DNA of 64,000 nt from Pseudomonas paralcaligenes (GTDB taxonomy: Bacteria > Pseudomonadota > Gammaproteobacteria > Pseudomonadales > Pseudomonadaceae): NCBI RefSeq assembly GCF_019655855.1, contig NZ_BPFX01000016.1, positions 84,129 to 148,128 on the forward strand. Reading direction: 5' to 3'. Both the position numbers and the translations under genes were made by a program. Position 1 is the stretch's first letter. Each line of letters opens with the position of its first letter. A model generated the notes under the pieces. It ran no database searches, was not told the origin of the DNA, and worked only from the letters and a program-made list of their open reading frames with translations. Below are positions 42,120-61,465 of this stretch, one piece after another.

Positions 42120-42914
42120 TCAGCGTCTCCGTGCGAGGCCGTCGATCTCGCACCTGACCTGGTGCACGAAGGCGGCGACCTCCCGTGGCCGGCGGGCCAG
42201 GTCGTCTGCGGCTTCGCCCAGATAGGCCGCGCGGGCGCTTGCCAGCACGGGACAATGGGTCTCCGGCAGCCGCTGCAGTGCCCACGTGGCGGCTGCATCC
42301 TTCGCCGCGATGCGGCCGGTGCACAGGGTGTACCAGATGCGTGCCAGGGCGAGCACCACGTTGCGCTCGTCGCCCTGCCAGTCGGCGGCCTCGTTCCACT
42401 GGGTGACGGTGTCGAGCAGCGCGCGCACCAGGTCGGTCTCGGGCACCGGTGCGAACAGCTCCGTGGCGGGCGGGCCGATCAGGGCGACGCCGTGCTGCCG
42501 GACCTTGGTCAGCAGGATCGCCAGGTCAGGGTCCGCAATCGGGGGCTCGATCGCGCCAGCCTCGATCCCTTCGCGCAGCCATTCGCCGAACTGCAGCTCG
42601 CGCCGCGCCGGGTAGCGCCAGGGGACAACCTCGCTGTGGACCACCACTGTCACCTCCAGCGCGCGCAGCGGGCCGTCGGGCACTGGCCAGGCCGACACCG
42701 CGAGCAGTCCGTGCATCAGCGCCCGGCGGGTCGCCTCGTTCAGCGGCGCCGAGACAGTCACCAGCAGGTCGATGTCGCTCAGCGGTCTGAGCCCACCGTC
42801 GACCGCCGAGCCGAACAGGTGGACGGCCAGCGGTGCCTGGCCGAGGTGGCGGGCGAGCACATCGAGTGCCGCCGCGAGTTGCGCGGCGATTTCAGCCGGG
42901 GGCGAGGTGTTCAT
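42120..42914 (-). CDS. aadA: AadA-like aminoglycoside 3''-adenylyltransferase
   Basis: The 264-residue enzyme belongs to the ANT(3'')-I family, which adenylylates streptomycin and spectinomycin. The nucleotidyl-transferase site reads GSAVDGGLRPLSDIDLLV near 36-53, and the WRYPARRELQFGEW and AILLTKVRQHGVALIGP blocks are those of AadA. There are no integron attC or intI features nearby, so it looks like a native chromosomal relative rather than a cassette. An IS-like inverted-repeat element ends 39 bases upstream of the ATG. Confidence 0.9.
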   Translation of the reverse strand: MNTSPPAEIAAQLAAALDVLARHLGQAPLAVHLFGSAVDGGLRPLSDIDLLVTVSAPLNEATRRALMHGLLAVSAWPVPDGPLRALEVTVVVHSEVVPWRYPARRELQFGEWLREGIEAGAIEPPIADPDLAILLTKVRQHGVALIGPPATELFAPVPETDLVRALLDTVTQWNEAADWQGDERNVVLALARIWYTLCTGRIAAKDAAATWALQRLPETHCPVLASARAAYLGEAADDLARRPREVAAFVHQVRCEIDGLARRR

Positions 42915-42952
42915 CCGCGAAGCGATCCTGGGCCGGTAGACGGCGCATCCTG

Positions 42953-43123
42953 GGGTCTGTACGAAAAGTCGTCGAGCGAAGGTCAGGCGAGGGCTAGGCG
43001 CCCCCACAAAAACGGGTGAGGAAGCGGACTGGGCTCGCATGCGAGTTTACGAGTTGTAAATGAGCATTCCGAACCCGTTTTTAACGAAGCATCACCGAAC
43101 GTAGGCACTTTTCGTACAGAGCC
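42953..43123. mobile_element. 171-bp MITE-like element upstream of aadA
   Basis: The termini are GGGTCTGTACGAAAAGT and, on the other strand, GGCTCTGTACGAAAAGT: 16 of 17 match, in inverted orientation. A second perfect inverted repeat, AAAAACGGGT/ACCCGTTTTT, lies inside, plus CTCGCATGCGAG. No coding frame and no clear target duplication are visible, so it is a deleted insertion sequence or a MITE. The parent family cannot be told from these ends. Confidence 0.65.
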
Positions 43124-45132: not shown

Positions 45133-46329
45133 CTAAAGCGCTCCGGCGGCGCGCAGCGCGGCGATGGCTGCGGCGTCGTAACCCAGTTCTCCCAGCACCT
45201 GCTCGTTGTGCTCGCCCAGTTGCGGGCCGGTCCATTCCACGGTTCCGGGAGTGTCGGACAGCTTGGGCACGATGCCCGGCATCCTGAACGGCTTGCCGTC
45301 CGGCAGCCTGGCCGAGAGGAACATCTCGCGGGCGAGGAATTGCGGGTCGCGGAACATGTCCTCGGCGGAATAGATGCGGCTGGCCGGCACCTCGGCGCGC
45401 ACCAGCACGGCCTCTACCTCGGCCAGCGGCAGGCTGGCGGCCCAGCGGTCGATCACCCCGTAGAGTTCGTCGCGGCGGGCGTCGCGGCCGGCGTTGTCGG
45501 CCAGGTCCGGCGCGTCGGCCAGGTCGTCCCGGCCGATGGCGCGCATGAAGCGCTGAAAGATGGCGTCGCCGTTGGCACCGATCTGGATGTGCCTGCCGTC
45601 GGCGCAGGTGTGGATGCAGGAGGGAGTGATGCCGGGCATGATGTTGCCGGTCCTTTCCCGCACGAAGCCGAACACGTCGAACTCCGGCACCATGGACTCC
45701 ATCATGGCGAACACCGCCTCGTAGAGCGCCACGTCCACCACCTGGCCGAGGCCGCCGTTGACCTCGCGGTGACGCAGCGCCATCAGCGCGCCGATCACGC
45801 CCCATAGCGCGGCGATGGAGTCGCCGATGCTGATGCCGGTACGCACCGGCGGCCGGTCCTCGAAGCCGGTGATGTAGCGCAGCCCGCCCATGGATTCGCC
45901 CACCGCGCCGAAGCCCGGCTGGTCCTTCAGCGGCCCGCTCTGGCCGAAGCCGGACAGGCGCACCATCACCAGCTTCGGGTTCAGGGCATGCAGCACGTCC
46001 CAGCCCAGGCCGAGCTTCTCCAGCACGCCGGGGCGGAAGTTCTCGATCAGGATGTCCGCGTCGGCCAGCAGCTTCTTCAATACCTCGCGGCCGGCCTCGT
46101 GCTTGAGGTTGAGGGTGATCGAGCGCTTGTTGCGGGCCTGCACGAACCACCACAGCGAGGTGCCTTCGTACAGCTTGCGCCACTTGCGCAGCGGATCGCC
46201 GCCGTCCGGCGACTCCACCTTGATCACTTCGGCGCCGAACTCCGCGCAGATGCGCGAGGCGAAGGGGCCGGCGATCAGGGTGCCGAGTTCGACCACCTTC
46301 AGGCCGGCGAGGGGTTTGCTGGGGACCAT
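45133..46329 (-). CDS. CaiB/BaiF family (class III) CoA-transferase
   Basis: The 398-residue enzyme moves CoA between carboxylic acids through an Asp-thioester mechanism. The opening LAGLKVVELGTLIAGPFAS and GADVIKVE-like GAEVIKVESPDGGDP are those of the family, and the likely catalytic Asp lies in GDSIAALWGV. AGGAGTCACG precedes the ATG at 46329; a 12-residue upstream extension is not supported. The substrate acid is unknown, and no partner dehydrogenase is adjacent. Confidence 0.92.
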   Translation of the reverse strand: MVPSKPLAGLKVVELGTLIAGPFASRICAEFGAEVIKVESPDGGDPLRKWRKLYEGTSLWWFVQARNKRSITLNLKHEAGREVLKKLLADADILIENFRPGVLEKLGLGWDVLHALNPKLVMVRLSGFGQSGPLKDQPGFGAVGESMGGLRYITGFEDRPPVRTGISIGDSIAALWGVIGALMALRHREVNGGLGQVVDVALYEAVFAMMESMVPEFDVFGFVRERTGNIMPGITPSCIHTCADGRHIQIGANGDAIFQRFMRAIGRDDLADAPDLADNAGRDARRDELYGVIDRWAASLPLAEVEAVLVRAEVPASRIYSAEDMFRDPQFLAREMFLSARLPDGKPFRMPGIVPKLSDTPGTVEWTGPQLGEHNEQVLGELGYDAAAIAALRAAGAL

Positions 46330-46519
46330 CGTGACTCCTGTTATGCGACCTGGTCGGCGCTCCACTGGCTGTTGCCGGTGGAGTATCTGCGGTTAAATCG
46401 ATGGGCGAAAGGATGTGCGTTTCCCTCCATCGTTTCCCCTCCCTTCTTCTCTCTGCGAGAACCCCCTCCGCTGTCGATAACGTCGTTTGTCAGATCGAGC
46501 CATACGCACGTTTGAAAAT

Positions 46520-46552
46520 ATTACATGTGATCTGTTGATTCATTACATGTGA
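46520..46552 (+). promoter_or_regulatory. Direct repeat upstream of the DUF2170-pspA operon
   Basis: Two copies of ATTACATGTGA (46520-46530 and 46542-46552) are spaced exactly 22 bases apart, two helical turns, each containing the dyad ACATGT. They lie 19 bases before the first start codon and are AT-rich against the background, as expected for an operator. No sigma54 promoter of the classic psp kind was seen. Confidence 0.55.
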
Positions 46553-46570
46553 GCAATTAGTCTCTCGTCC

Positions 46571-47188
46571 ATGGAAAGCAAATCTTCAGCCCATTACCAG
46601 CGTCTCTTTCGGCAACGCCTGCGCGAGCAGGGTCTGGTCAAGAAAGAGGTCTGGATACTGCCCGAGCATGCCCAGATGCTCGCGGCGTTCGAGCGGAAAC
46701 TGCGCCAGCCCTTGTCGGGGCAGGCCTCTATGGAGAAGGAGGGAGGTGCCATGCCTCAGGTTTGGACTGCACAAGGTTTGTTCGATGCGCTGTCCGTGAC
46801 GGAGCTGTTCAAGGAAGGCCGGGCGGCCATCGAGCTGATCCAGGGCGCCGACGCCAGCCTGCACGTGACCATGCGCGAATACGGCGATCTGCCGTTGTTC
46901 ATCGCGGTGTTCGGCGAGCAGATCATCGTCGAGGCGCTGCTCTGGCCGGCGGCGGACGTGCGCGACACGGCGGCCTTCAACGAGGAAGTGCTGCGCAGCC
47001 ACAAGCTGTTCCCGCTGTCCTCCATCGGCCTGGAGACCCTGCCGGACGGCCAGGCCTGCTACACCATGTTCGGCGCGCTGAGCGCATCCTCGGTCCTGTC
47101 CAACGTGGTGCAGGAGATCGAGATGCTGGCGGACAACGTGATCAAGGCCACCGAAGCCTACGAAGACTTCCTCGCGGCCGAAGCCTAA
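46571..47188 (+). CDS. DUF2170 family protein (YjfI-like) with an extra N-terminal domain
   Basis: Residues from about 61 (MPQVWTAQGLFDALSV...) match the DUF2170 family that accompanies PspA in many bacteria. Residues 1-60 are an extension (RLREQGLVKKEVWILPEH) with the look of a ribbon-helix-helix DNA-binding unit. The ATG at 46571 has no clear ribosome binding site, whereas an in-frame ATG at 46751 follows AAGGAGGGAGGTGCC, so a shorter form of 145 residues may also be made. It leads the block and lies 10 bases before pspA. The role is not established; a chaperone or regulator of PspA is plausible. Confidence 0.85.
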   Translation: MESKSSAHYQRLFRQRLREQGLVKKEVWILPEHAQMLAAFERKLRQPLSGQASMEKEGGAMPQVWTAQGLFDALSVTELFKEGRAAIELIQGADASLHVTMREYGDLPLFIAVFGEQIIVEALLWPAADVRDTAAFNEEVLRSHKLFPLSSIGLETLPDGQACYTMFGALSASSVLSNVVQEIEMLADNVIKATEAYEDFLAAEA

Positions 47189-47198
47189 GGAGATAGCC

Positions 47199-47894
47199 AT
47201 GAACGTATGGAGCAAGCTGCTGACCGCCCTGCGCGGCGGCGCCAACGAAGTGGGTGAGGCCCTGGTGGACAGCCAGGCCCTGCGCATCCTCGACCAGGAA
47301 ATCCGCGACGCCGACCTGGAGCTGCGCAAGTCCAAGGAAGCCTTGGCCGAGATCATGGCCAAGCAGAAGCTGGCCGCCGACCGTGCCGAAAAGAGCGCGG
47401 CCAAGGTCACTGAATACGAGCAGTACGCGCTCAAGGCCCTGGAGGCCGGCAACGAGTCGCTGGCCCAGGAAGTGGCGGTGAAGATCGCCAACCTGGAAGT
47501 CGAACTGGCCGGCGAGCGCGAGCAGGCCGACGGCTATGCCGCCAGCGTGGCGCAGCTGCGCAAGGCGGTGGCCCAGGCCGAGGCCAATATCAAGCGCCTC
47601 AAGCAGCAGGTGGATACCGTCAAGGCCACCGAGAGCGTACAGAAGGCGCAGATGGCCGTGGCCCAGCGCTACGGCGGCTCACAGGCCAAGCTGCACACCG
47701 CCGTCGAGTCGCTGGAGCGGATCAAGCAGCAGCAGGCCGAGCGTGCGGCGAAGATGGAAGCGACGGCCGAGCTGGCCGAGGCGGCCAACCTCGACGATTC
47801 GCTGGAGACCAAGCTGCGCGCGGCAGGCATCAAGGCCGACAACGCCAGCGCCGAGCATGTGCTGGCGCGTCTCAAGGACAAGGCCAAGTCCTGA
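47199..47894 (+). CDS. PspA/IM30 family protein
   Basis: This 231-residue protein is almost wholly coiled-coil, as in PspA, the ESCRT-III-like protein that polymerises on damaged membranes. N-terminal amphipathic helix (NVWSKLLTALRGGANEV) for membrane binding and long heptad stretches (about 25-185) are visible. It belongs to the PspA branch near DUF2170 (YjfJ type), not the branch with PspBC and PspF. AAGGAGATAGCC precedes the ATG. A hairpin follows. Confidence 0.93.
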   Translation: MNVWSKLLTALRGGANEVGEALVDSQALRILDQEIRDADLELRKSKEALAEIMAKQKLAADRAEKSAAKVTEYEQYALKALEAGNESLAQEVAVKIANLEVELAGEREQADGYAASVAQLRKAVAQAEANIKRLKQQVDTVKATESVQKAQMAVAQRYGGSQAKLHTAVESLERIKQQQAERAAKMEATAELAEAANLDDSLETKLRAAGIKADNASAEHVLARLKDKAKS

Positions 47895-47905
47895 TCGGCT
47901 GTCTG

Positions 47906-47934
47906 GAGAGAGGCCGCGCGAAGCGACCTCTCTC
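47906..47934. other. Hairpin within the operon after pspA
   Basis: GAGAGAGG and CCTCTCTC form an 8-bp stem closing a 13-base loop between pspA and the next gene. There is no T-tract. It may set the relative mRNA level of pspA. Confidence 0.5.
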
Positions 47935-47958
47935 GGTTAATTCGGGGAAAGGAAAGTT

Positions 47959-48600
47959 ATGGAAATCTTCCTGCAGACGGTGTCCTCGTTTCCCACTGCG
48001 CTGTTCAGCTTTCTCCTGTGCGTGGCGATCATCTACTGGATGGTCGTGGCACTGGGACTGATCGAGGTCGACGTGCTGAACGTCGAGGTGGACTCCTTGA
48101 TGGAAGGGACCGGCCAGGCCGAAGGGCTGGCCGGGCTACTGTACAAGCTCAAGCTGGGCGGGGTGCCGGTCACCCTGGTGCTGACCCTGCTGTTCTTTGC
48201 GGCCTGGACGCTCTGCTACTTCCTGGAACTCCTGCTGCTGCGCCACCTGCCGCTGGGCTTCCTGCGCTATCCGCTCGGCCTGGTGGCGGCTGCCGCGGCG
48301 CTGGTGCTCGCGGTGCCTTTCTGCGCCGCCATCTGCAGGCCCCTGCGCCCGCTGTTCGAGAAGGTCGAGGCGACCACCAGCAAGTCGGTGCTCGGCCAGG
48401 TGGCGGTCGTGCGCAGTGGCCGGGTCACCCTGAGCCACGGCGAGGCGGTGCTGGAAGACGGTGGGGCGGGCCTGATCCTGCGTGTGCGCGCGGAAGAGTC
48501 GCTCGGCTTCACGCGGGGAGACAGGGTGGTGCTGCTGGAGTATCTGCCAGCCGAGCATGCGTACCGTGTCATTACCGAGAATGAGTTTCGGGGCGTTTGA
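47959..48600 (+). CDS. yqiJ: YqiJ-like membrane protein with OB-fold domain
   Basis: The 213-residue protein has about three hydrophobic helices (around 12-40, 74-95 and 103-128) and a C-terminal soluble OB-like domain (KSVLGQVAVVRSGRVTLSHG, 150-205). This is the arrangement of YqiJ/NfeD-like partners that anchor or regulate flotillin-type proteins. It is immediately upstream of the flotillin gene, as yqiJ is to yqiK in E. coli. Confidence 0.85.
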   Translation: MEIFLQTVSSFPTALFSFLLCVAIIYWMVVALGLIEVDVLNVEVDSLMEGTGQAEGLAGLLYKLKLGGVPVTLVLTLLFFAAWTLCYFLELLLLRHLPLGFLRYPLGLVAAAAALVLAVPFCAAICRPLRPLFEKVEATTSKSVLGQVAVVRSGRVTLSHGEAVLEDGGAGLILRVRAEESLGFTRGDRVVLLEYLPAEHAYRVITENEFRGV

Positions 48601-48627
48601 TCCCCTAGCTAAGGAGATTGGAAAACA

Positions 48628-50673
48628 ATGGAATACATCATCCCTGGCCTTATGTTCGCCGGGCTCTTCGTCCTCATCCTGTTGGCCCTGCTGGCCCTGT
48701 TCAAGGCCTTCTACATCAAGGTCCCGCAGGGCACGGCGCTGATCGTCAACGACATGTCCTCCACGCCCAAGGTGCATTTCACCGGCGCCCTGGTGTACCC
48801 GGTGATCTACCTCAAGGAGTTCATGCGCATCTCGCTGATCACCCTGGAAGTGGATCGCCGCGGCAAGGACGGCCTGATCTGCCGCGACAACATGCGCGCC
48901 GACATCACCGTGGCCTTCTACCTGCGCGTCAACGAGACCCAGGAAGACGTGCTCAAGGTGGCCAAGGCCATCGGCGTGGACCGTGCTTCCGATCGCGCGG
49001 CGGTCAACGAGCTGTTCAACGCCAAGTTCTCCGAGGCGCTGAAGACCGTCGGCAAGCAGTTCGACTTCGTCCAGCTGTTCGAGAACCGCCAGGACTTCCG
49101 CGACCGCATCGTCGAGATCATCGGCAACGACCTCAACGGCTACGTGCTGGAAGACGTCGCCATCGACTACCTGGAGCAGACCTCCAAGGCCTCCCTGGAC
49201 CCGAGCAACATCCTCGACGCCGCCGGTATCCGCAAGATCACCGAGCTGACCGCGGCGCAGAACGTCGTCACCAACGAGCTGGAGCGCAACGAGGAGCTGG
49301 CGATCAAGAAGAAGAACGTCGAGACCCGCGAGGCGACCCTGGCCCTGGAGCGCCAGCAGGCCGATGCCGAGGCGCGCCAGAAGCGTGAAGTCGAGACCAT
49401 CCGTGCCCGCGAGGAAGCCGAGACCATCAAGGTCAAGGAAGAGGAACGCCTCAAGGCCGAGCAGGCGCGCATCCAGTCGCAGCAGGAAATCGACGTGCGC
49501 GCCGAGAACCATCAGCGCGAGGTCGAGGTCGCCCAGCAGAACCGCCAGCGCGCCGTGGTCATCGAGGTGGAGAAGGTCACCCGCGCCAAGGATCTGGAAG
49601 TGGTGGCCCGCGAGCGCGAGGTCGAGCTGCAGCGCATCGAGGCCGAGAAGGCCCTGGAAGAGCAGCGCAAGAACATCGCCAACGTGATCCGCGAGCGCGT
49701 CGCCGTGGAGAAGACCGTGGCCCAGGAAGAGGAGCGCATCAAGGAGGTGCGCGAAGTCTCCGAGGCCGAGCGCGCCAAGCAGGTCATCGTGCTGCAGGCC
49801 CAGGCCGAAGCCGAGCAGGAGCTGGTGCGCCAGGTCAAGCAGGCCGAGGCCGACGAGACCCGTTCCAAGCACAAGGCGGTGGAAATCAACAACCTGGCCC
49901 AGGCCGAGCTGGAAGCCGCGGCCAAGCAGGCCGAGGCCAAGAAGCGCATGGCCGAAGGCATCGAGGCCGAGCGTGCCGCGCCCGGCCTGGCCGACGCCCG
50001 CGTGCTGGAGGTCACCGCCGCGGCCAAGGAGAAGGACGGTCTGGCCGACGCTCGCGTGCGGGCCGAGCAGCTGATCGCCGAAGCCAAGGGCGAGCAGGAG
50101 AAGGGCCTGGCCGAGGCGCGCGTACTGGAAGCCCAGGCCGCCGCCAAGGAGAAGGATGGTCTGGCCGAGGCCAAGGTGCTGGAAGAGAAACTGGGCGCCC
50201 AGGCGCGTGGCGAGCAGCAGCTCGGCGCCGCCAAGGCCCAGGCGACCAAGGACCTGGGTACGTCGGAAGCCGACGTGCTGCTGCAGCGCCTGAATGCGGA
50301 AGCGGAGGGCCTGAGCAAGAAGTTCGGCGCCCTGGACGCGCTCAGCGACAGCGCCCGCCAGCACGAGGAGTTCCGCATGCAGCTGGAGAAGAGCTTCGAG
50401 GAGGCCATGGCCGCCATCGCCGCCAACAAGGAAATCGCCAAGGACCAGGCCGAGGTGCTCGCCACCGCGCTGGGCAAGGCGAAGATCGAGATCGTCGGCG
50501 GCGAGGGCGACTTCTTCAATTCCTTCGCCAAGTCCCTCTCGGTGGGCAAGGCCATCGAGGGCGTGGTCGGCAAGAGCCCGGTGGTGCAGGACGTGCTCGC
50601 CCGCCTGCTGGCCGGCAAGGCGGCTCCTGCCGTGCCGGTCGCCGCGCCGACCCCGGGCTCCGAGCAGGCATGA
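48628..50673 (+). CDS. yqiK: YqiK-type flotillin / band-7 protein
   Basis: The 681-residue protein has an N-terminal membrane anchor (about 5-30), an SPFH/band-7 domain (about 32-210), and a very long coiled-coil stalk with E-A-R-K-rich heptads (220-640). Between about 440 and 540 are tandem imperfect repeats (GLADARVLE, GLAEARVLEAQAAAKEKDG). Flotillins gather membrane microdomains and their protein partners. A AAGGAGATTGG site precedes the ATG. Paired with YqiJ it probably forms the membrane platform for the block. Confidence 0.93.
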   Translation: MEYIIPGLMFAGLFVLILLALLALFKAFYIKVPQGTALIVNDMSSTPKVHFTGALVYPVIYLKEFMRISLITLEVDRRGKDGLICRDNMRADITVAFYLRVNETQEDVLKVAKAIGVDRASDRAAVNELFNAKFSEALKTVGKQFDFVQLFENRQDFRDRIVEIIGNDLNGYVLEDVAIDYLEQTSKASLDPSNILDAAGIRKITELTAAQNVVTNELERNEELAIKKKNVETREATLALERQQADAEARQKREVETIRAREEAETIKVKEEERLKAEQARIQSQQEIDVRAENHQREVEVAQQNRQRAVVIEVEKVTRAKDLEVVAREREVELQRIEAEKALEEQRKNIANVIRERVAVEKTVAQEEERIKEVREVSEAERAKQVIVLQAQAEAEQELVRQVKQAEADETRSKHKAVEINNLAQAELEAAAKQAEAKKRMAEGIEAERAAPGLADARVLEVTAAAKEKDGLADARVRAEQLIAEAKGEQEKGLAEARVLEAQAAAKEKDGLAEAKVLEEKLGAQARGEQQLGAAKAQATKDLGTSEADVLLQRLNAEAEGLSKKFGALDALSDSARQHEEFRMQLEKSFEEAMAAIAANKEIAKDQAEVLATALGKAKIEIVGGEGDFFNSFAKSLSVGKAIEGVVGKSPVVQDVLARLLAGKAAPAVPVAAPTPGSEQA

Positions 50674-50683
50674 ACCCTGCGTA

Positions 50684-50747
50684 GGAGCGGCCTTGGCCGC
50701 GAACCGGGACAGGCACCGCGCCGCCCCTTCGCGGCCAAGGCCGCTCC
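50684..50747. repeat. Perfect 20-bp REP hairpin
   Basis: GGAGCGGCCTTGGCCGCGAA and its exact complement at 50728-50747 make a long stable inverted repeat between the flotillin and TerB-like genes. It is a REP doublet. It could stabilise the upstream mRNA end. Confidence 0.85.
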
Positions 50748-50804
50748 CACAGTGGGGCGGCGATGCCGCCCCATCTATCCATTTCGATCAATCAGGAAAC
50801 AGCC

Positions 50805-51044
50805 ATGTCGGAATCAAGGGACTATCTGGAGATGACCTTCCGCTCGATCCAGTGCTTCAGCGATGACGGGCGCCTGGATGCCCAGGAGCTGAAGGCGCTG
50901 CTGGAGATCGCCGAGCGCGACGGGGTGATCGACGATAACGAGGTCCGGGTGCTGCGCAAGATCATCGCGCAGGTCCGGCCGGAGGAAATCGACGCGGCGC
51001 TGCGCGACAAGATCGCCAAGGTCGAGAAGAAGATCGGCGGGTAG
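50805..51044 (+). CDS. Tiny TerB-like / EF-hand-like protein
   Basis: This 79-residue all-alpha protein resembles the tellurite-resistance TerB fold core. Two acidic loops look like degenerate EF-hands: SDDGRLDAQE and ERDGVIDDNE. The first could bind a divalent metal. A start at 50805 follows ATCAGGAAACAGCC; an earlier in-frame ATG has no ribosome binding site. It sits between the flotillin and the giant ATPase and could be a metal-sensing adaptor. Confidence 0.8.
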   Translation: MSESRDYLEMTFRSIQCFSDDGRLDAQELKALLEIAERDGVIDDNEVRVLRKIIAQVRPEEIDAALRDKIAKVEKKIGG

Positions 51045-51119
51045 CGCGCGGGGTGGGCAGGCCCACAGCATGTCCACCCATCGCCTAGGGCCCGAATACG
51101 CAGATCCAGGAAGAGCACG

Positions 51120-54100
51120 ATGTCGGACGCACATACACAGGACGTATTGGACAAGGCCGTCGCCGAAGGCGGCGCCTACGAGGTGCTGCACAAGCGTCTG
51201 GAGGACCAGGGCCAGCGCCTGCGGCAGACCGCCGAGCAACTCAACCGGCAGCGCCTGGAGGAGTTCGGCAGCAGCCAGATGGAGGTGATCGGCCGGGTCC
51301 GCATCCGCACCGAGAACAACTGCATCGCCCGCGACATCGTCCAGGTCGGCGACTGCCTGCTGTTCGGCTACAACGTGTTCATCGGCCTGAAGAAGGAGAC
51401 CGGCGTCGCCGACGTGTTTTCCCTCTACCGGCTGGTGGGCGAGGGCGATGCCTACGAGGCCGAGCCGGTGCCGCTGGAAGGCACCTTCCTGGCCGCGCCC
51501 GGCTTCGTCAACGACTTCAACGAGCTGTACAGCTACTACAAGAATACCCGCCTGCTGCAGCTTGCCATCCGCGACGGCAAGCTGCTGGCGAGCTTCCAGA
51601 TCGGCGAGCGGATCACCGACATCCGCGTGTTCCGCTGGTCGATCTCCCTCGACGGCAAGGACGTCCGCTACATCGACAACCGCGGCGAGCGCGATATCGC
51701 GCTGCCGGCGCCGTTCGACTTCGAGTGGTCCCGGGCCACCCGCGAGATGGTGGTGGAAGGCCGCCATCCGCACCTGAACATCCTCGACACCCTGTTCGTC
51801 GAGACCATCGGCGGCGACCTCACCATCAAGGTGGAGAACAACACCGAGGACGGCCTGGGCATCTACCGCGAAGAGGTGATGGACAAGACCCAGTCGCTGG
51901 ACGACGCCCAGGTCGAGTTCGCCCGCCTGGGCAGCCTGGTGCTGCTCAAGGTGCTGCCGTACCGCGAGGAGCGCTGGCGCTACCTGGTGTACAACGGCCT
52001 CACCGGCAAGGTGGAGCGCATCGACGCCATCGGCCAGGCCTGCGTCCAGCTGCCGGAAGACCACGGCATCATCTTCCCCGGCGGCTACTACCTGCAGAAC
52101 GGCGAGTACAAGACCTTCGAGCAGTCCATGGCCGGCATGCGCTTCAAGCGCGCCGTGCGCTCGCCCAACGGCGAGGACGTGCAGTACATCTTCTACCACC
52201 CGGAAGAAGGCCGCTCGGTACTGCTCACCTACAACATGATCAACCGCCAGCTGCAGAACCCGATCTTCGGCCACGGCTACGCGCGCCTGGAGGACGGGCG
52301 CACGGTGATCTTCTCCGCCGAAGGCGAGGAGCCGACCCGCATCCACCCCATGCAGATCTGGCAGACGCCGTTCTGCAGCGACGAATTCGCCGCCCGCCAG
52401 CCGGCGCGCAGCGGCTTTCTCGGCAAGATCGGCAACGCCGAGCTGGTGCGCGGCATCTCCGACCTCTACGACCTGTGCCGCGAGATCGACGCGCCCTCGG
52501 TGTCGGTGCAGCGCTACAGCCTGCTGTGCCAGAACACCCGCCGCCTGTTCGACACCTACCACTGGCTGGCCAGCGAGCAGCTGGCCGGGCTGGCCCCGTT
52601 GCTGCGCGAGATCGCCGCCACCGCCGAGCTGGTGCTGGACGAGTACGAGAAGGTCGAGAGCATCCGCAAGCAGTCGGCCCAGGCCATGGTCGACGCCGAG
52701 AGCCGCCACAAGACGCTGCTCGATAGCCTGCTGCCGGACAGCTGGGACCAGGCGCAGAGCTTCGTCGACGCCCTCAACGGCATCACCGCCCAGCGCGGCC
52801 TGCTGCTGACCATCCGCGAATACCGCTACATCGACCTGGAACGCCTGGACGCCATGGAGGCCGAGCTGCTGGCCGCCCAGGAGCGCATCTCGGCGGCCAC
52901 CGCCAGCTTCCTCGCCGACGACAGCGCCCTGCAGCCCTTCGTGGTGCGCCTGCAGGGCCTCGACGAGCAGGCGCAGAAGGCCGAGACCGTGGCACAGCTG
53001 GCCGAGCCGATGGCCGCCCTGCAGACCATGGCCGCCGACCTGGACATGCTGTCCGGCCTGATGGCCGGGCTGAAGATCGAGGACGCCACCCAGCGCACCC
53101 GCATCGTCGAATCCATCTCCGAGATCTACGCCCGCCTGAACCAGGCCAGGGCGCGCGCCGAGCAGCGCCGCAAGGGCCTGGGTTCGAGCGAGACGGTGGC
53201 GCAGTTCGGCGCCCAGTTCAAACTGTTCAGCCAGGGCATCACCAACGCCCTCGGCCAGGCCCAGGACCCGGAGCGCTGCGACGAGCAGCTGGCCCGCCTG
53301 CTGGTGCAGCTGGAGGAACTGGAGAGCCAGTTCGGCGACCAGGAGCAGTTCCTCGGCGACATCATGGCCAAGCGCGAGGAACTGCTGGAGACCTTCGAGG
53401 CGCACAAGCAGGCGCTGCTCGACGAGCGCCAGCGCAAGGCCCAGGGCGTGCTCGACGCCGCCCGGCGCATCCTCGACAGCCTGGGCCGGCGCACCGCCCG
53501 GTTCACCCAGGCCGAGGAACTCAACGCCTTCTTCGCTGCCGACCCGCTGATCCTCAAGCTGCGCGAGATGACCGAGCGCCTGCGCGAGCTGAAGGACAGC
53601 GTCAAGGCCGACGACATCGAGGCGCGCCTCAAGGGTGCCCGCGACCAGGCGGTGCGTGCCCTGCGCGACAAGAGCGAACTGTTCGAGGCGGGCGGCAACG
53701 TCATCAAGCTCGGCCCGCGCCACCGCTTCAGCGTCAACACCCAGGAGCTGGACCTGACCCTGCTGCCGCGCGGCGACCAACTCTACCTGCACCTGACCGG
53801 CACCGACTTCCTCGAACCGCTGGAGAACCCCGAACTGGAGGCGCTCAAGCCGTTCTGGCAGGTGGCGCTGGAGTCCGAATCCGAGCAGCTGTACCGCGCC
53901 GAGTATCTGGCCGGCGAGGTGCTGGCCGCCGCCGACGAGGGCCGCGAGGGGCTGAGCCTGGAGCGTCTCAAGCCGCTGCTGGCGCAGCCGGACGAGCTGG
54001 CCAGGCTGATCCGCGACTTCGCCGCGCCGCGCTACAAGGAAGGCTACGAGAAGGGCATCCACGACCACGACGCTGCCGTCATCCTCGCCCAGTTGCTGCC

Positions 54101-56354
54101 CCTGCGCGACAGTGCCGGCTTGCTGCGCTACGGCGCCGAGGCGCGCGCGCTGGGCTGCCTGTTCTGGGACCTGCGCCGGGACACCGACGGGGCCGCCCAG
54201 TGGCCGGAGCGGGCGCGCACCAGCCGCCATATCCAGCAGCTGTTCGGCGGCCGCGACGGGTTGCAGCAGTTGCAGGAGGAGATCGCCGAGGCGCTGCATG
54301 CCTTCCTCGCCGAACAGCCGCTGGGGCTGGACGAGGCGGTGGTGGGCGAGGCCGCCGAATACCTGGTGCAGGAGCTGGCCGCCGAGCGCGTCGAGTTCGT
54401 CTTCAGCAAATACGCCAGGCAGCTGCAGGAAGGTCTCAAGCTGCGCCTGCAGGGCGCGCGCATGTGGGACGACTACCAGCAGGCCCTGGAACGCCTGGAC
54501 GGTCGGCCGGCGGCGCAGTGGGCGCTGGCCGGCAACTGGCTGCGCGGCCTGTGCGCCCAGGACGAGTTCGCACCGCTGGCCGGCTACGTGGCCGAGGCGG
54601 TGGCGCTGTCGCTGCTGGGGGAGGGTTTCCCCGGCCGCGTCACCGAGGTGGACCTGCGCTTCACCGTCACCGACCTGATGGGCGAGCACCCGCGGATCCA
54701 CGAGCGTCAGTTGGTGCTGGCGGTGGACGACCTGTTCGCCCGCCTGCGCAGCCACCGCGAGGCGTTCCTGCCCGGTCTGCAGCGCTACCAGGCGTTGCGC
54801 CAGGAAGTGATCGCCCGCGAGCGCGAGGCGCTGCGCCTGTCCGAGTTCAAGGCCAGACCGCTCAGCTCCTTCGTGCGCAATAAGCTGATCAACGATGTGT
54901 ACCTGGGCTTCATCGGCGACAACCTGGCCAAGCAGATGGGCACCGCCGGGGAGAACAAGCGTACCGACCTGATGGGCCTGCTGATGCTCATCTCGCCGCC
55001 CGGCTACGGCAAGACCACCCTGATGGAGTACGTCGCCCACCGCCTGGGCCTGATCTTCATGAAGATCAACGGTCCGGCCCTGGGCCACGAGGTGCGTTCC
55101 ATCGATCCGGCCCAGGCGCCGGACGCCACCTCGCGCCAGGAGCTGGAGAAGCTCAACCTGGCGCTGGAGATGGGCAACAACGTGATGCTGTATGTCGACG
55201 ACATCCAGCACACCCACCCGGAATTCCTGCAGAAGTTCATCTCGCTGTGCGACGGCACCCGGCGCATCGAGGGCGTGTGGAAGGGCCGCACCCGGACCTA
55301 CGACATGCGCGGCAAGAAGTTCTGCGTGATCATGTCCGGCAACCCGTACACCGAGTCCGGCGATGTCTTCAAGATTCCCGACATGCTCGCCAACCGCGCC
55401 GACATCTATAACCTCGGCGACACCCTGGGCGGCATGCAGGAAGCCTTCTCCCTGTCGTACATCGAGAACGGCCTGACCTCCAACCCGGTGCTGGCGCCGC
55501 TGGCGACCCGCGACATGGCCGACGTCTACCGCTTCGTCGCCAAGGCCGAGGGCAAGCCGTTCTCCGCCAACGAGCTGAGCCATGGCTACAGCGGTGCGGA
55601 GATCAATGAGATCGTCAGCACCCTGCAGCGCCTGATGCAGGTGCGCGACGTGGTGGGCCGGGTCAACCAGCAGTACATCGCCAGCGCCGCCCAGGCCGAC
55701 CAGTACCGCAGCGAGCCGCCGTTCAAGCTGCAGGGCAGCTACCGCAACATGAACAAGATGGCCGAGAAGATCAGCGCGGTGATGAACGACGCCGAGCTGC
55801 TGCAGCTGATCGCCGACCACTACCAGGGCGAGTCGCAGCTGCTCACCACCGGTGCCGAGGAGAACCTGCTCAAGCTGGCCGAACTGCGCGGCAACATGAC
55901 GGCCGAACAGGCCGAGCGCTGGGCACAGATCAAGCGCGACTTCCTGCGCAACAAGGCCATGGGCGGCAGCGACAGCGACGTCGGCGCCCGCGTGGTGGCC
56001 CAGCTCAACGACCTGGTGGAAGGCATCCGTGCCCTGCAGCGCGAGCCGCAGAAGCAGCAGGAGATTCCCTGGGCCGAGCTGCTGGCCGGCCTGGAGCGGC
56101 TCGGCACCCTGCAGCCCCAGGTGGAAGTGGCCGTGCAGGCGCCGCCCCAGCCCGGCGTGCAGGTGCTGCTGGAGCGGGTCGCCGAGACCCTGCAGAACAG
56201 CTTCCTGCCGCTGATGAACGCCATGGACAAGAAGATCGAGATCGACCTGCGTACCCATGGCCGCATGGGCGAGATGGCCCAGCGCCTGCGCGAGCTGGGC
56301 CAGTTCCTCGGCGCGCCGCAGCCACCGACCGAGCCGGGGCCGGAGCAGGCGTGA
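51120..56354 (+). CDS. Giant AAA+ ATPase (1744 residues), annotated elsewhere as DNA repair ATPase
   Basis: The N-terminal half (about 40-470) is beta-rich with repeated acidic strands such as LVLLKVLPYREERWRYLVYNG. A long coiled-coil region spans about 540-880, and a helical linker follows. The AAA+ module lies near residues 1270-1500: Walker A SPPGYGKTT around 1290-1298, Walker B VMLYVDDIQ around 1356-1364, and sensor-1 region VIMSGNPYTESG around 1401. A coiled tail ends the protein. It lacks a signal peptide or obvious transmembrane segment. Relatives are often labelled DNA repair ATPase without direct proof. Its stop overlaps the rhomboid gene (GTGA). Confidence 0.9.
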   Translation: MSDAHTQDVLDKAVAEGGAYEVLHKRLEDQGQRLRQTAEQLNRQRLEEFGSSQMEVIGRVRIRTENNCIARDIVQVGDCLLFGYNVFIGLKKETGVADVFSLYRLVGEGDAYEAEPVPLEGTFLAAPGFVNDFNELYSYYKNTRLLQLAIRDGKLLASFQIGERITDIRVFRWSISLDGKDVRYIDNRGERDIALPAPFDFEWSRATREMVVEGRHPHLNILDTLFVETIGGDLTIKVENNTEDGLGIYREEVMDKTQSLDDAQVEFARLGSLVLLKVLPYREERWRYLVYNGLTGKVERIDAIGQACVQLPEDHGIIFPGGYYLQNGEYKTFEQSMAGMRFKRAVRSPNGEDVQYIFYHPEEGRSVLLTYNMINRQLQNPIFGHGYARLEDGRTVIFSAEGEEPTRIHPMQIWQTPFCSDEFAARQPARSGFLGKIGNAELVRGISDLYDLCREIDAPSVSVQRYSLLCQNTRRLFDTYHWLASEQLAGLAPLLREIAATAELVLDEYEKVESIRKQSAQAMVDAESRHKTLLDSLLPDSWDQAQSFVDALNGITAQRGLLLTIREYRYIDLERLDAMEAELLAAQERISAATASFLADDSALQPFVVRLQGLDEQAQKAETVAQLAEPMAALQTMAADLDMLSGLMAGLKIEDATQRTRIVESISEIYARLNQARARAEQRRKGLGSSETVAQFGAQFKLFSQGITNALGQAQDPERCDEQLARLLVQLEELESQFGDQEQFLGDIMAKREELLETFEAHKQALLDERQRKAQGVLDAARRILDSLGRRTARFTQAEELNAFFAADPLILKLREMTERLRELKDSVKADDIEARLKGARDQAVRALRDKSELFEAGGNVIKLGPRHRFSVNTQELDLTLLPRGDQLYLHLTGTDFLEPLENPELEALKPFWQVALESESEQLYRAEYLAGEVLAAADEGREGLSLERLKPLLAQPDELARLIRDFAAPRYKEGYEKGIHDHDAAVILAQLLPLRDSAGLLRYGAEARALGCLFWDLRRDTDGAAQWPERARTSRHIQQLFGGRDGLQQLQEEIAEALHAFLAEQPLGLDEAVVGEAAEYLVQELAAERVEFVFSKYARQLQEGLKLRLQGARMWDDYQQALERLDGRPAAQWALAGNWLRGLCAQDEFAPLAGYVAEAVALSLLGEGFPGRVTEVDLRFTVTDLMGEHPRIHERQLVLAVDDLFARLRSHREAFLPGLQRYQALRQEVIAREREALRLSEFKARPLSSFVRNKLINDVYLGFIGDNLAKQMGTAGENKRTDLMGLLMLISPPGYGKTTLMEYVAHRLGLIFMKINGPALGHEVRSIDPAQAPDATSRQELEKLNLALEMGNNVMLYVDDIQHTHPEFLQKFISLCDGTRRIEGVWKGRTRTYDMRGKKFCVIMSGNPYTESGDVFKIPDMLANRADIYNLGDTLGGMQEAFSLSYIENGLTSNPVLAPLATRDMADVYRFVAKAEGKPFSANELSHGYSGAEINEIVSTLQRLMQVRDVVGRVNQQYIASAAQADQYRSEPPFKLQGSYRNMNKMAEKISAVMNDAELLQLIADHYQGESQLLTTGAEENLLKLAELRGNMTAEQAERWAQIKRDFLRNKAMGGSDSDVGARVVAQLNDLVEGIRALQREPQKQQEIPWAELLAGLERLGTLQPQVEVAVQAPPQPGVQVLLERVAETLQNSFLPLMNAMDKKIEIDLRTHGRMGEMAQRLRELGQFLGAPQPPTEPGPEQA

Positions 56355-56902
56355 CGGCCTGGCTGGCGCCCCGCCTGCGGCTGCTGATCGGCATCGCCGC
56401 GGCGCTGCTGGCGCTGCAACTGGTCAACGGCCTGAGCGGCCACGCCCTCAACGCCTGGGGCGTGCTGCCACGGCGGGTCGACGGCCTGCCCGGCATCCTC
56501 CTGGCGCCCTGGCTGCACGCCGGCTGGTGGCACCTGCTGAACAACCTGCCGGGCCTGATGCTGCTGGGCTGGCTGGCGCTGCTCGGCTCGCTGCGCCAGT
56601 TCCTCGCCGCCAGTGCCTTCATCATCGTCGGCAGCGGGGCGCTGGTCTGGCTGTTCGCCCGGCCGGGGCTGCACCTGGGCGCCAGCGGCTGGGTGTTCGG
56701 CCTGTGGGGCCTGCTGCTGGCGCGGGCCTGGTTCGAGCGCAGCCTGGCCAGCCTGCTGATCGCCCTGCTGGTGCTGCTCTACTATGGCGGCTGGTGGCTC
56801 GGCCTGCTGCCGAGCCGGGACATTTCCTTCGAATACCACCTGTTCGGTGCCCTGTGCGGCGTGCTGTTCGCCGCCCTGACTCGGCGCCGGCGCCCGACCT
56901 GA
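56351..56902 (+). CDS. Rhomboid-family intramembrane serine protease
   Basis: The 183-residue membrane protein has six helices. The early HAGWWHLLNN motif is the conserved H-x4-H-x3-N. The catalytic serine is in LGASGWVFG, and the partner histidine is in SFEYHLFGALCG of the last helix, so it appears active. It starts at a GTG overlapping the ATPase stop, which indicates co-translation. A substrate in the same operon, such as the YqiJ-like protein or flotillin, is only a guess. Confidence 0.92.
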   Translation: MTAWLAPRLRLLIGIAAALLALQLVNGLSGHALNAWGVLPRRVDGLPGILLAPWLHAGWWHLLNNLPGLMLLGWLALLGSLRQFLAASAFIIVGSGALVWLFARPGLHLGASGWVFGLWGLLLARAWFERSLASLLIALLVLLYYGGWWLGLLPSRDISFEYHLFGALCGVLFAALTRRRRPT

Positions 56903-56912
56903 GGATGTGGAC

Positions 56913-57602
56913 ATGGACTTCGCCCGTCTCGACCAGCAACTGCGCGACAGCCTGGTCGACCTCAAGCTGAGCAACGAGGAACGCGACGAGCTGCGCCAGC
57001 TCGGCACCGACCTGGGCCCGGACCAGGTGCGCTACCTGCGTAACCGTGCCTTCGACCTGGTGCGCGACCTGGCGCTGACCGATCCCGCCAACGTGTTGCC
57101 GGCGCTGAAGTGGCTGGAGCAGGTGGTGCGTACTCTCGACCTGGCCGCCACGCCACCGCGCCCGGCGGTCGCCAGCGCCCACTTCAGCCCCGGCGAGGAC
57201 TGCCTGCGCAAGATCCGCGAGCTGTGCCGCCAGGCGCGCGAGTCGGTGGACATCTGCGTCTACACCATCTCCGACGACCGCCTCAGCGACGAGATCGCCG
57301 CCTGCCACCGCCGGGGCGTGGCGGTGCGGGTGATCAGCGACGACGAGAAGCAGCACGACGAAGGCAGCGACGTCCTGCGTCTGATCGCCCAGGGTGTGCC
57401 GCTGCGCATCGACCACAGCCCGTTCCACATGCACCACAAGTTCGCCCTGTTCGACCGGCGCATCCTGCTCAACGGCAGCTTCAACTGGACCCGCAGCGCC
57501 AGCACCAGCAACGAGGAGAACCTGCTGGTGATCGACCATCCGCAGCTGGTGGCCGCCTATGCGCGGGTGTTCGAGTCGCTCTGGACGCGCTACGCCCGCT
57601 GA
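56913..57602 (+). CDS. Single-HKD phospholipase-D-like protein
   Basis: The 229-residue protein has an N-terminal helical region (1-80) and a C-terminal PLD domain with the catalytic HHKFALFD (HxKx4D) and GSFNWTRSASTSNEEN signatures. Proteins with one HKD motif act as dimers on phosphodiester bonds of nucleic acids or phospholipids (the Nuc/Zucchini/cardiolipin-hydrolase type). The ATG at 56913 has GAGG 8 bases upstream and is preferred to a GTG at 56907. It ends the block. Confidence 0.92.
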   Translation: MDFARLDQQLRDSLVDLKLSNEERDELRQLGTDLGPDQVRYLRNRAFDLVRDLALTDPANVLPALKWLEQVVRTLDLAATPPRPAVASAHFSPGEDCLRKIRELCRQARESVDICVYTISDDRLSDEIAACHRRGVAVRVISDDEKQHDEGSDVLRLIAQGVPLRIDHSPFHMHHKFALFDRRILLNGSFNWTRSASTSNEENLLVIDHPQLVAAYARVFESLWTRYAR

Positions 57603-57735: not shown

Positions 57736-58881
57736 ATGCAGCTGAACCTCGCCACCCTGGTGATGCTGGACATCTACGTACTCCTGCTGGTCAGCGTGCT
57801 GATGCTGCACGCCTGGACCCGTGGGCGCGACCGCACGCTGGGCTACCTGGCGGCGGCACTGGTGATCGGCGCCCTCGGGGCGCTGGTCGGCACCCTGCGC
57901 GGGGTGGGCATCGACTGGGTGCCCATCGTCTTCAGCAACCTGCTGGTGCTGTTCAGCGCGGCCCTGGCCTGGACCGCCCTGCGGGTGTTCACCGGGCGCC
58001 CGCCCTGTCGCTGGGGCATGCTGGCCGGCGGCGCGGTGTGGCTGCTGCTGTGCCTGGTGCCGGCCTTCCACCAGGCGCTGTCGCTGCGCATCACGCTCAG
58101 CTCGCTGCTGATGGCCGCCTATGCCGTCCTCGGCGCCTGGGAGCTGTGGCGCAGCCGGCTGCAACTGGAGGTGGACTACCGGCCGACCCTGGCCCTGGTG
58201 CTGCTCCACGCCGGCTTCTATATCGTGCGCGCCTTTCTTGACCGGGACATGCCGTTCGACCCCGAGGGGCAGAGCACCACCTTCTTCTCCCTGGTCGTGC
58301 TGGAGACCTTGCTGTACGCCATCGGCCTGGCCTTCGTCACCCTGTCGATGGTCAAGGAACGCGCCGAATTGCTGTACAAGAGCGCGGCGCTACGCGACCC
58401 GCTGACCGGCATCGGCAACCGCCGTGCTTTCGTCGACGCGGCCGGCCGGCTGCTCGCCGACTGCGCGCACCTGCGCCGGCCGGCGGTGCTGCTGCTGTGC
58501 GACCTCGACCACTTCAAGAAGGTCAACGACAGCTTCGGCCACGCAGCCGGCGACCAGGCCCTGGCCGACTTCGGCCAGATCCTGATGGACCGCTCCCGCC
58601 AGCACGACATCTGCGCGCGGATCGGCGGCGAGGAATTCGTCTGCCTGCTGGCGGGGGCCGACGCCTCCGCGGCGCTGTCACTGGCCGAGCGGATTCGCAG
58701 CGAGTTCGCTTCTCTACCGTTCGTCGCCGCGGGCCAGCTGAGCGTCAGCATCGGCATCGCCGAGGCGGCACAGGCCGGCTACCAGCTCGACCGCCTGCTG
58801 TCGCTGGCGGACGAGGCGCTCTACGCCGCCAAGGCAGCCGGGCGCAACCGGGTGGAGCTGTACCGGGCAGAGCCCCGGTGA
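57736..58881 (+). CDS. Membrane-bound diguanylate cyclase (GGDEF)
   Basis: The 381-residue protein has about six transmembrane helices in residues 1-200 and a C-terminal GGDEF domain, with the active-site motif GGEEF near 294-298 and a product-inhibition I-site RQHD five residues before it. It makes cyclic di-GMP and is expected to be subject to feedback inhibition. The membrane domain is of the MASE-like sensor type. It appears monocistronic and is followed by a REP palindrome. Confidence 0.93.
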   Translation: MQLNLATLVMLDIYVLLLVSVLMLHAWTRGRDRTLGYLAAALVIGALGALVGTLRGVGIDWVPIVFSNLLVLFSAALAWTALRVFTGRPPCRWGMLAGGAVWLLLCLVPAFHQALSLRITLSSLLMAAYAVLGAWELWRSRLQLEVDYRPTLALVLLHAGFYIVRAFLDRDMPFDPEGQSTTFFSLVVLETLLYAIGLAFVTLSMVKERAELLYKSAALRDPLTGIGNRRAFVDAAGRLLADCAHLRRPAVLLLCDLDHFKKVNDSFGHAAGDQALADFGQILMDRSRQHDICARIGGEEFVCLLAGADASAALSLAERIRSEFASLPFVAAGQLSVSIGIAEAAQAGYQLDRLLSLADEALYAAKAAGRNRVELYRAEPR

Positions 58882-59749: not shown

Positions 59750-61465
59750 ATGCGTATCGATCTCCGCCCGCTCCCCGACACCCTGCCTGACCTGGGCAAC
59801 CTGCCGCCCCTGCTGACCCGTCTCTACGCGGCCCGCGGCGTGCGCTCCGCCGAGGAGCTGGACAAGGGCCTGGCGCGGCTGATCCCGTACCAGCGGCTGA
59901 AGGGCATCGAGGCGGCGGTGGAGCTGCTGGTGCAGGCCCTGGAGCGGCGCGAGCGCATCCTCTTCGTCGGCGACTTCGACGCCGACGGCGCCACCGCCAG
60001 CTCGGTGGGCGTGCTCGGCATGCGCATGCTCGGCGCGGCCCACGTCGACTACCTGGTGCCGAACCGTTTCGAGTACGGCTACGGCCTGACCCCGGAAATC
60101 GTTGCCGTGGCCCTGGAGCGCCGGCCCGACCTGCTGGTGACGGTGGACAACGGCATCTCCAGCGTCGACGGCGTGGCCGCGGCCAAGGCCGCCGGGCTGC
60201 GGGTGCTGGTCACCGACCACCACTTGCCGGGGCCGGAACTGCCGGCGGCCGACGCCATCGTCAACCCCAACCAGCCGGGCTGCGACTTCCCCAGCAAGTC
60301 GCTGGCCGGGGTCGGGGTGATCTTCTATGTGCTGCTGGCCCTGCGCGCGCGGCTGCGCGAGGTCGACTGGTTCGCCCGTGCGGGCATCGCCGAGCCCAAC
60401 CTGGGCGAGCTGCTCGACCTGGTCGCCCTGGGCAGCGTGGCCGACGTGGTGCCGCTGGACGCCAACAACCGCATCCTGGTCCACCAGGGCCTGGCGCGCA
60501 TCCGCGCCGGCCGGGCCAGGCCGGGGCTGCGGGCGATTCTGGAAGTGGCCGGGCGCCAGCATGGGCGGATCAGCTCCACCGACCTCGGCTTCATCCTCGG
60601 CCCGCGGCTGAACGCGGCGGGGCGCCTGGACGACATGAGCCTGGGCATCGAGTGCCTGCTGTGCGAGGACGAGGCCCTGGTACGCGACATGGCCCAGCAG
60701 CTGGACGACCTGAACAAGGACCGCAAGGCCATCGAGCAGGGCATGCAGCGCGAGGCCCTGGCCCAGCTCCGCGACCTGCCGGTGGAGAGCCTGCCGTTCG
60801 GCCTCTGCCTGTTCGAGCCGGACTGGCACCAGGGGGTGATCGGTATCCTCGCCTCGCGCCTGAAGGAGCGCTACCACCGCCCGGCCATCGCCTTCGCCGA
60901 CGCCGGCGACGGCCTGCTCAAGGGCTCGGCGCGCTCGGTGCCCGGCCTGCACATCCGCGACGCGCTGGACGCCGTGGCGGCGCGCCACCCCGGGCTGATC
61001 AGCAAGTTCGGCGGCCACGCCATGGCCGCCGGCCTGTCGCTGCCCCAGGGCCACTACGGCGCCTTCGCCAGCGCCTTCGACGCGGAAGTGCGCCGCCAGC
61101 TGACCGAGGACGACCTCACCGGCCGCCTGCTGTCCGACGGCCAGCTGGGCATCGAGGAATTCCACCTGGAGCTGGCCAAGGCCCTGCGCCATGCCGGCCC
61201 CTGGGGCCAGCACTTCCCCGAGCCGCTGTTCCACGGCGTGTTCCAGATCGTCACCCAGAGGGTGGTGGGCGAGAAGCACCTCAAGCTGGTGGTGAAGACC
61301 GAATGCGGCGGCCAGACCCTGGACGGCATCGCCTTCAACATCGACCGCGAGGTATGGCCCAACCCCAACGTGCGCTGGGTGGAGCTGGCCTACAAGCTGG
61401 ACGTCAACGAGTACCAGGGACGCGAGAGCGTCCAGCTGATGGTGGCGCACCTGGCGCCACGCTAG
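59750..61465 (+). CDS. recJ: Single-stranded-DNA-specific exonuclease RecJ
   Basis: RecJ degrades single-stranded DNA 5' to 3' in recombination and repair. The 571 residues hold the phosphoesterase motifs FVGDFDADGATAS (motif I), TVDNG, and the DHH motif TDHHLPGPEL, with the DHHA1 signature GGHAMAAGL near 423-431 and a C-terminal OB fold. Length is the family norm. It converges with the lapG-like gene, sharing 4 bases. Confidence 0.97.
   Translation: MRIDLRPLPDTLPDLGNLPPLLTRLYAARGVRSAEELDKGLARLIPYQRLKGIEAAVELLVQALERRERILFVGDFDADGATASSVGVLGMRMLGAAHVDYLVPNRFEYGYGLTPEIVAVALERRPDLLVTVDNGISSVDGVAAAKAAGLRVLVTDHHLPGPELPAADAIVNPNQPGCDFPSKSLAGVGVIFYVLLALRARLREVDWFARAGIAEPNLGELLDLVALGSVADVVPLDANNRILVHQGLARIRAGRARPGLRAILEVAGRQHGRISSTDLGFILGPRLNAAGRLDDMSLGIECLLCEDEALVRDMAQQLDDLNKDRKAIEQGMQREALAQLRDLPVESLPFGLCLFEPDWHQGVIGILASRLKERYHRPAIAFADAGDGLLKGSARSVPGLHIRDALDAVAARHPGLISKFGGHAMAAGLSLPQGHYGAFASAFDAEVRRQLTEDDLTGRLLSDGQLGIEEFHLELAKALRHAGPWGQHFPEPLFHGVFQIVTQRVVGEKHLKLVVKTECGGQTLDGIAFNIDREVWPNPNVRWVELAYKLDVNEYQGRESVQLMVAHLAPR

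Follow-up and report, generated by a model that had tools for sequence, protein, structure and literature searches.

The window analysed here is a 64,000-nucleotide stretch of Pseudomonas paralcaligenes DNA (NCBI RefSeq assembly GCF_019655855.1, contig NZ_BPFX01000016.1, positions 84,129 to 148,128 of the forward strand), and the system in question is an eight-gene operon within it, which is a bac-type phage shock protein (PSP) operon with two extra enzymes, a rhomboid protease and a phospholipase D (PLD)-like enzyme, at its end. We propose, with a probability of about 0.72, that its first product, BacA, is the operon's own repressor, acting on paired boxes at the promoter and released by PspA at the damaged membrane. 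The operon is ordinary as a gene list and new as a regulated machine, the regulatory layer being its most novel part.

The box consensus is the palindrome TYACATGTRA, two copies of which, 22-24 bp apart, cover a sigma70-like promoter before bacA. In the window the elements are:

46521..46530, + strand: predicted operator box 1, TTACATGTGA; the exact pair occurs once in this genome
46535..46540, + strand: putative -35-like TTGATT, read from the sequence
46543..46552, + strand: predicted operator box 2, TTACATGTGA, 22 bp after box 1 and within the promoter spacer
46558..46563, + strand: -10-like TAGTCT, 7 nt before the start codon of a predicted leaderless mRNA
46571..47188, + strand: bacA, 205 residues; N-domain (about 1-47, predicted DNA-binding) followed by a DUF2170/CesT-like domain

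Loci for comparison were the best 80 of at least 575 bacF-bearing loci confirmed in named genomes; they were chosen by bacF and close relatives dominate. The box pair was present with at most two mismatches in 50/61 bacA upstream regions (window included), and none of 3050 mononucleotide shuffles had fewer than four. In the 19 loci without bacA, no pair stood before bacC (0/19, at least six mismatches). The other 11 regions were inspected by eye; among them L041 carries TCACGCGTGA twice. Also by eye, two boxes lie 13-16 bp apart in L078, L094 and L097 and about 29 bp apart, one of them imperfect, in L086. In six loci of the Lysobacter clade the box resembles TTTCATGTAA (in L065 it reads TTTCAGGTAA), and several of these carry a reverse copy that overlaps the start codon.

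Exact pairs were then sought in 298 genomes of the genus, 136 of which encode DUF2170 proteins (138 matches, 22 bac-type). The ACATGT pair occurred in 18 genomes, once each and always before a bac-type bacA, and a pair of the related ACGCGT type in 68 genomes, at 69 sites, always before a DUF2170 gene; every one of the 87 exact pairs thus precedes a DUF2170 gene, at a distance of no more than 353 bp. Reversed box patterns had no match in the 298 genomes. Of the four bac-type genomes that lack an exact pair, G337 and G324 have a single mismatch in box 2, G015 has neither N-domain nor box, and G289 is discussed below. Because about 20 fixed bases make chance hits near zero, this survey, being one of pairs, shows a one-operon regulon and not that the boxes are rare.

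The part of BacA that is predicted to bind this DNA is its N-terminal ~47 residues, which seem to have been overlooked. These residues are conserved coding sequence (16063, 8632 and 30220 differences at the first, second and third codon positions), and in the bac literature, as far as it was available, the N-domain goes unmentioned. The published BacA structure is without it, since the letters of crystal 8q8o match only residues 61-206 of the 206-residue P. aeruginosa protein (reference P0003, 268 members, 99% identity; 8q8o numbering is chain index + 33). An AlphaFold model of the BacA monomer (30 sequences, mean predicted local distance difference test score, pLDDT, 82.6) has a helix at 6-19, an extended segment at 20-30 that includes VKKEVWI, a helix at 31-45, a low-confidence linker and the DUF2170 domain. 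Foldseek matches to this model, namely 8q8o (TM score 0.96 of target) and YbjN and type III secretion chaperones, all cover the second part. The N-domain faintly resembles MazE-like DNA-binding domains: six of 12 N-termini matched PF11455 below its cut-off (best 15.5 bits against 22), and in hhalign comparisons with the N-domain two MazE-like antitoxins came top among the 95-119-residue open reading frames of their loci, weakly (E 0.016 and 0.001), so membership of that family is not claimed.

Box type follows one residue of the predicted strand. In 77 loci (duplicates L103 and L107 dropped) the region searched began 200 nt ahead of the first base of the frame and ended 120 nt past it. Where residue 25 is histidine, an ACGCGT box was found in 34/34 (30 with that type alone, three with one additional ACATGT and one with ACACGT); where it is lysine or arginine, ACATGT was the only type in 38/39 and the remaining locus had no box. 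On a midpoint-rooted tree of the DUF2170 part, H25 forms a single clade inside K/R25, and its first split is the KHEA branch, which has one box of each type and is placed as an intermediate would be. The KHEAW proteins of L143, L168 and L175 each have one ACGCGT and one ACATGT box. The N-domain is absent in four of the 77 loci, through at least four separate losses on the tree (one in G296, a genome only 86% complete); three of the four have no exact box, and the fourth, in G289, has the box type of its own paralogue. There the bac BacA (L041; L129 and L177 are loci of the same genome) has lost its N-domain, the bac promoter carries an ACGCGT pair, and the genome's second DUF2170 operon, an H25 type, uses ACGCGT. 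We read this one case as a bac operon that may have passed under its paralogue's control.

BacA is predicted to be made in two forms:

46736..46742, + strand: internal Shine-Dalgarno sequence AAGGAGG, within bacA
46751..47188, + strand: predicted short BacA (DUF2170 only), from internal Met61

The bacA message is predicted to be leaderless because a Shine-Dalgarno sequence is missing at the long start and the -10 element lies 5-8 nt upstream. Not even a 4-nt Shine-Dalgarno match was present at the long start in 58/61 loci, and a TANNCT -10 lay 5-8 nt before it in 42/61 (shuffles, 2.4%). An internal Met before DUF2170 with a Shine-Dalgarno match of at least 4 nt was found in 55/61 loci (three fell below and three had no such Met; random codons, 1534/6100). 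In all these counts the best of several Mets or starts was taken, which favours a match, and L041, whose start is unsure, is among the 61. In operons consisting of a DUF2170-PspA dyad the internal Met has its Shine-Dalgarno sequence in 62/62 cases (random, 24%); the long start has its own in 50/62, so leaderlessness is not a family trait.

The remaining genes of the operon, and other genes noted in the window, are:

47199..47894, + strand: bacB, PspA/IM30 family (Pfam PspA_IM30, 8e-53)
47959..48600, + strand: bacC, YqiJ-like membrane protein (hhalign against YqiJ, probability 93)
48628..50673, + strand: bacD, YqiK-type flotillin
50805..51044, + strand: bacE, a 79-residue mini protein, TerB/EF-hand-like, that has two acidic loops; family matches fall below cut-off
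51120..56354, + strand: bacF, 1744 residues, DUF3686 and one AAA+ domain; Walker A PPGYGKT, Walker B DDIQH
56351..56902, + strand: rhomboid protease gene (Pfam Rhomboid, 1e-18), GASG Ser112 and His163 conserved
56913..57602, + strand: PLD gene, single-HKD (Pfam PLDc_2, 1e-30); closest PDB entry, mitochondrial cardiolipin hydrolase
42120-43040, - strand: gene with an AadA-type aminoglycoside adenylyltransferase C-terminal domain (1.6e-32)
45133-46365, - strand: class III CoA-transferase gene, divergent from bacA
57736-58881, + strand: GGDEF diguanylate cyclase gene directly 3' of the operon; a homologue occurs somewhere in 19/80 bacF loci, adjacency and strand not being constant
59750-61465, + strand: gene for a RecJ-like protein, neighbour of the operon

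A first-pass annotation of the window had read 46571..57602 as eight consecutive same-strand genes that suggest one membrane-stress or phage-defence-like system. All eight open reading frames are present on the + strand, and Pfam confirms DUF2170 (4e-52), PspA, DUF3686 (7e-209) with AAA_5 (5e-6), rhomboid and PLD; BacA also reaches 346.8 bits against the BacA equivalog NF050185 (cut-off 300). BacC and BacD have no informative Pfam match of their own, Band_7 not being matched by BacD, and their YqiJ-like and YqiK-type labels were upheld by homology searches (BacD against E. coli YqiK, 29% identity, 5e-40, hhalign probability 99.9, over the SPFH part). The TerB label stands below cut-off only (0.0019; 18.9 bits against 24.4). 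The bacE start at 50805 is the more likely one, because the 14 extra upstream residues are not common to its relatives, and the PLD start was reassigned to ATG 56913, which has GAGGA upstream. Among the matches listed, the nearest named relatives of BacF are from Pseudomonas, including P. alcaligenes (93-94% identity). PDB sequence searches with BacC, BacD and BacF gave no match, and nothing in the window matched Rfam at gathering cut-offs.

We infer the following course for the switch. The N-domain of BacA would bind both palindromic boxes, of which the first precedes the -35 element and the second sits in the -35/-10 spacer. On damage to the membrane, BacB (PspA) would assemble there and take up BacA through its CesT-like DUF2170 domain, freeing the promoter. 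Rebuilding or stabilising the membrane would then fall to BacB, the flotillin BacD with BacC, and the AAA+ protein BacF. The rhomboid would cut orphan or damaged membrane proteins or an operon partner, and the PLD would remodel lipid or another phosphodiester; the internal start would supply a BacA lacking the N-domain, whose role would be to tune the switch. Repression fits a box inside the promoter spacer and the published rise of BacB-F (6.1-13.5 fold) in a bacA transposon-insertion mutant (PMC10948618). Coupling to PspA fits a predicted BacA-BacB contact (AlphaFold2, 0.981; PMC13092808) and an interaction that its authors cite as unpublished (PMC10948618).

The survey of co-occurrence and order that the first-pass annotation had called for gave a nearly fixed order. 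Among the 80 bacF loci, bacD is present in 80, bacC in 79, bacA and bacB in 60 each, PLD in 52, the rhomboid in 47 and bacE in 31 (30 on the + strand); the window's full eight-gene order occurs in 21. Exceptions are bacE between bacB and bacC (L096), PLD before the rhomboid (L066) and, at two loci, a gene resembling bacE that lies 2.7 kb before bacA. Since the order recurs in these loci across many genera, the arrangement is not chance. The bacF ATPase family itself is patchy (5/36 same-genus genomes, 9/57 relatives in all and 8/200 in the phylum). Some operons are interrupted by inserts of 1.8-3.4 kb that may hold further partners: in Lampropedia (L086, L097) the insert separates bacD from bacF, and in four loci of Lysobacter (L065, L067, L085, L093) it separates bacF from PLD. 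The earlier claim of one membrane-stress unit is supported by this order, by the single transcript of the P. aeruginosa operon (PMC10948618) and by the joint rise of PA3728-PA3732, whose expression was up in all phage-infected samples (PMC12041424). As a kind of system it is mostly not new: six of the families had already been found together (PMC11237479), and the small gene is bacE of PMC10948618 by position.

The rhomboid looks like a real PSP partner, being catalytically intact and tightly placed. Its GxSG serine and TM6 histidine are each kept in 47/47 loci, and its start lies within 120 nt of bacF in 43/80 loci. The same subfamily stands behind pspA in 34 of 64 DUF2170-PspA dyads (operons fetched from 116 distant matches; some stretches end early); three motif patterns were met in 31 of these 34, the other three (two GASA, one ESHM) being recognised by eye. 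In G289 the rhomboid is absent from the bac locus and present in the dyad operon. A rhombosortase identity was rejected (TIGR03902, 27.7 bits against a cut-off of 84). Shigella rhomboids can clear orphan membrane proteins (PMC7232013). In the PLD, the motifs HxK(x)4[DE] and GSxN are kept in 52/52 loci. By profile its best PDB match is mitochondrial cardiolipin hydrolase (4.7e-39), followed by Nuc endonuclease (1.3e-20), so its substrate may be lipid or nucleic acid.

That both enzymes are passengers hitch-hiking downstream is improbable. The rhomboid was not found in 33/80 loci and the PLD in 28/80 (a few of these contigs end early), as passengers might behave, but of the 47 loci with a rhomboid 29 show a 4-nt overlap between it and bacF (in the window GTGA, 56351-56354), the rhomboid's subfamily recurs in the dyads as described, and the genome's other rhomboid is not matched by the subfamily's profile. 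The subfamily also keeps its place beside flotillin-AAA without PspA: 14 rhomboid loci lack bacA and bacB in the available stretch, one of them (L027) owing to a short contig, and the other 13, with the left flank available, belong to Xenorhabdus, Providencia, Pragia, Limnobaculum and one Enterobacteriaceae bacterium. Less probable still is a phage-defence role in which the rhomboid and the PLD serve as effectors; the first-pass annotation had suggested a phage-defence-like system acting at the membrane. Induction by phage (PMC12041424) and the likeness of the PLD to DrmC speak for it; against it, PADLOC returned for 10 window proteins only generic PLD matches (best DrmC, 5e-12) and weak AAA matches (IetA, 0.005), no other of the 10 matches the core of DISARM or another system with any weight, and the PLD has its nearer relatives in cardiolipin hydrolase and Nuc.

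Several observations weigh against BacA as the operon's repressor. The MazE-like match is sub-threshold and absent for the window's own N-terminus, a PDB search with the N-domain found no chain under E 0.5, and the modelled helix-extended-helix (block pLDDT 58-78) is not a clear ribbon-helix-helix (RHH). H25 is one clade, which leaves few events behind the link of residue to box, and in one of the boxless losses (L179) a box is present with a single mismatch. Nor is the pair universal, because 24 of the 77 loci searched show a single exact box, including 12 of 13 KREFW loci, the thirteenth having none. The bacA mutant is a transposon insertion in which read-through could raise BacB-F, and the word "complement" is absent from PMC10948618. 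Finally, the bac papers propose a sigma54 promoter (PMC10948618); scored for it on the window DNA alone, the best match within 300 bp of bacA reaches 25/30 at -267, inside the divergent CoA-transferase gene, a score attained by 53/1220 pooled shuffles, which makes this promoter weak rather than excluded.

Should BacA be a CesT-like chaperone only, another transcription factor would bind the boxes and that factor or sigma54 would control the operon. The CesT/YbjN-like fold of DUF2170 and the sigma54 promoter with a chaperone-type regulator proposed in PMC10948618 agree with this, yet box type and presence track the BacA N-domain, all exact pairs precede DUF2170 genes, and the sigma54-like match is far upstream and within shuffles; we consider it unlikely. 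Somewhat easier to entertain, if still a minority reading, is that BacA binds the boxes but activates, or that BacA and PspA repress jointly and membrane damage removes both. PspA co-inhibits with PspF in the classical system, and a BacA-BacB contact is predicted (PMC13092808). The rise of BacB-F in the bacA mutant and the box in the -35/-10 spacer fit repression, and neither decides whether PspA is a co-repressor.

The reading of BacA as a repressor released by PspA can be extended, tentatively and with the balance somewhat against the whole, to DUF2170 proteins as one-piece membrane-stress switches that join a DNA-binding N-domain with a residue-to-box code to a PspA-binding CesT-like domain. 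A leaderless long repressor and an internally started short antagonist would be made, PspA on damaged membrane would remove the repressor, and the dedicated rhomboid subfamily would be the protease arm; we infer the two forms, the short form's role, and the roles and substrates of rhomboid and PLD. To the question of what turns on PSP systems that lack PspF, the published answer for bac is a sigma54 promoter with a regulator resembling a chaperone. Should BacA prove to be a one-gene repressor with an operator code, the matter would come down to simple tests, with the natural variants as a ready specificity series, and the published BacA structure would turn out to lack the regulatory part. A rhomboid partner would add an intramembrane protease to the PSP parts list.

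Seven of the eight genes are already known as one kind of PSP operon, bacE and bacF being equated by position, not sequence. The P. aeruginosa bac operon was first described in 2008 (PMC2587700), and its six genes, bacABCDEF, were shown by reverse transcription PCR in 2024 to lie on one transcript (PMC10948618). Like the window it has the order DUF2170, PspA, membrane protein, PA3729-type protein and two more genes; unlike it, as published, the window has the rhomboid and PLD after bacF. Its papers, in the parts seen, give a BacA crystal without the N-domain, propose a sigma54 site and name no operator. Ravi et al. (2024, PMC11237479) describe the CesT/Tir-like DUF2170 protein as a PspA partner in operons that add flotillin, a beta-propeller AAA+ ATPase, YqiJ and, in some Proteobacteria, PLD, the same families as here. 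In the main text of that paper "rhomboid" and "protease" occur 0 times, and in the part available RHH is named twice (once as a gene of its own at the end of another dyad group, once in an actinobacterial Toastrack operon), never within DUF2170 proteins. Among the matches listed, judged by titles and abstract starts, no paper joins a rhomboid with flotillin/YqiJ or with PspA/phage shock in an operon; a literature search for DUF3686 returned 0 papers. E. coli yjfIJKL shares the DUF2170-PspA dyad; its YjfI (133 residues) is without the N-domain, and no box was seen by eye within 180 nt upstream. In heat-evolved E. coli strains a promoter deletion upstream of yjfIJKL was accompanied by strong up-regulation (PMC12492005). 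The bac boxes, as two short palindromes in helical register, are laid out like the tandem operators of the MetJ type, from which the box itself differs, the fold of the BacA N-domain being only predicted. In the classical pspF-pspABC system, as in bac, PspA is partnered by a transcription factor; PspF is a sigma54 activator, whereas BacA carries a fused CesT-like domain and is predicted to repress a sigma70-like promoter.

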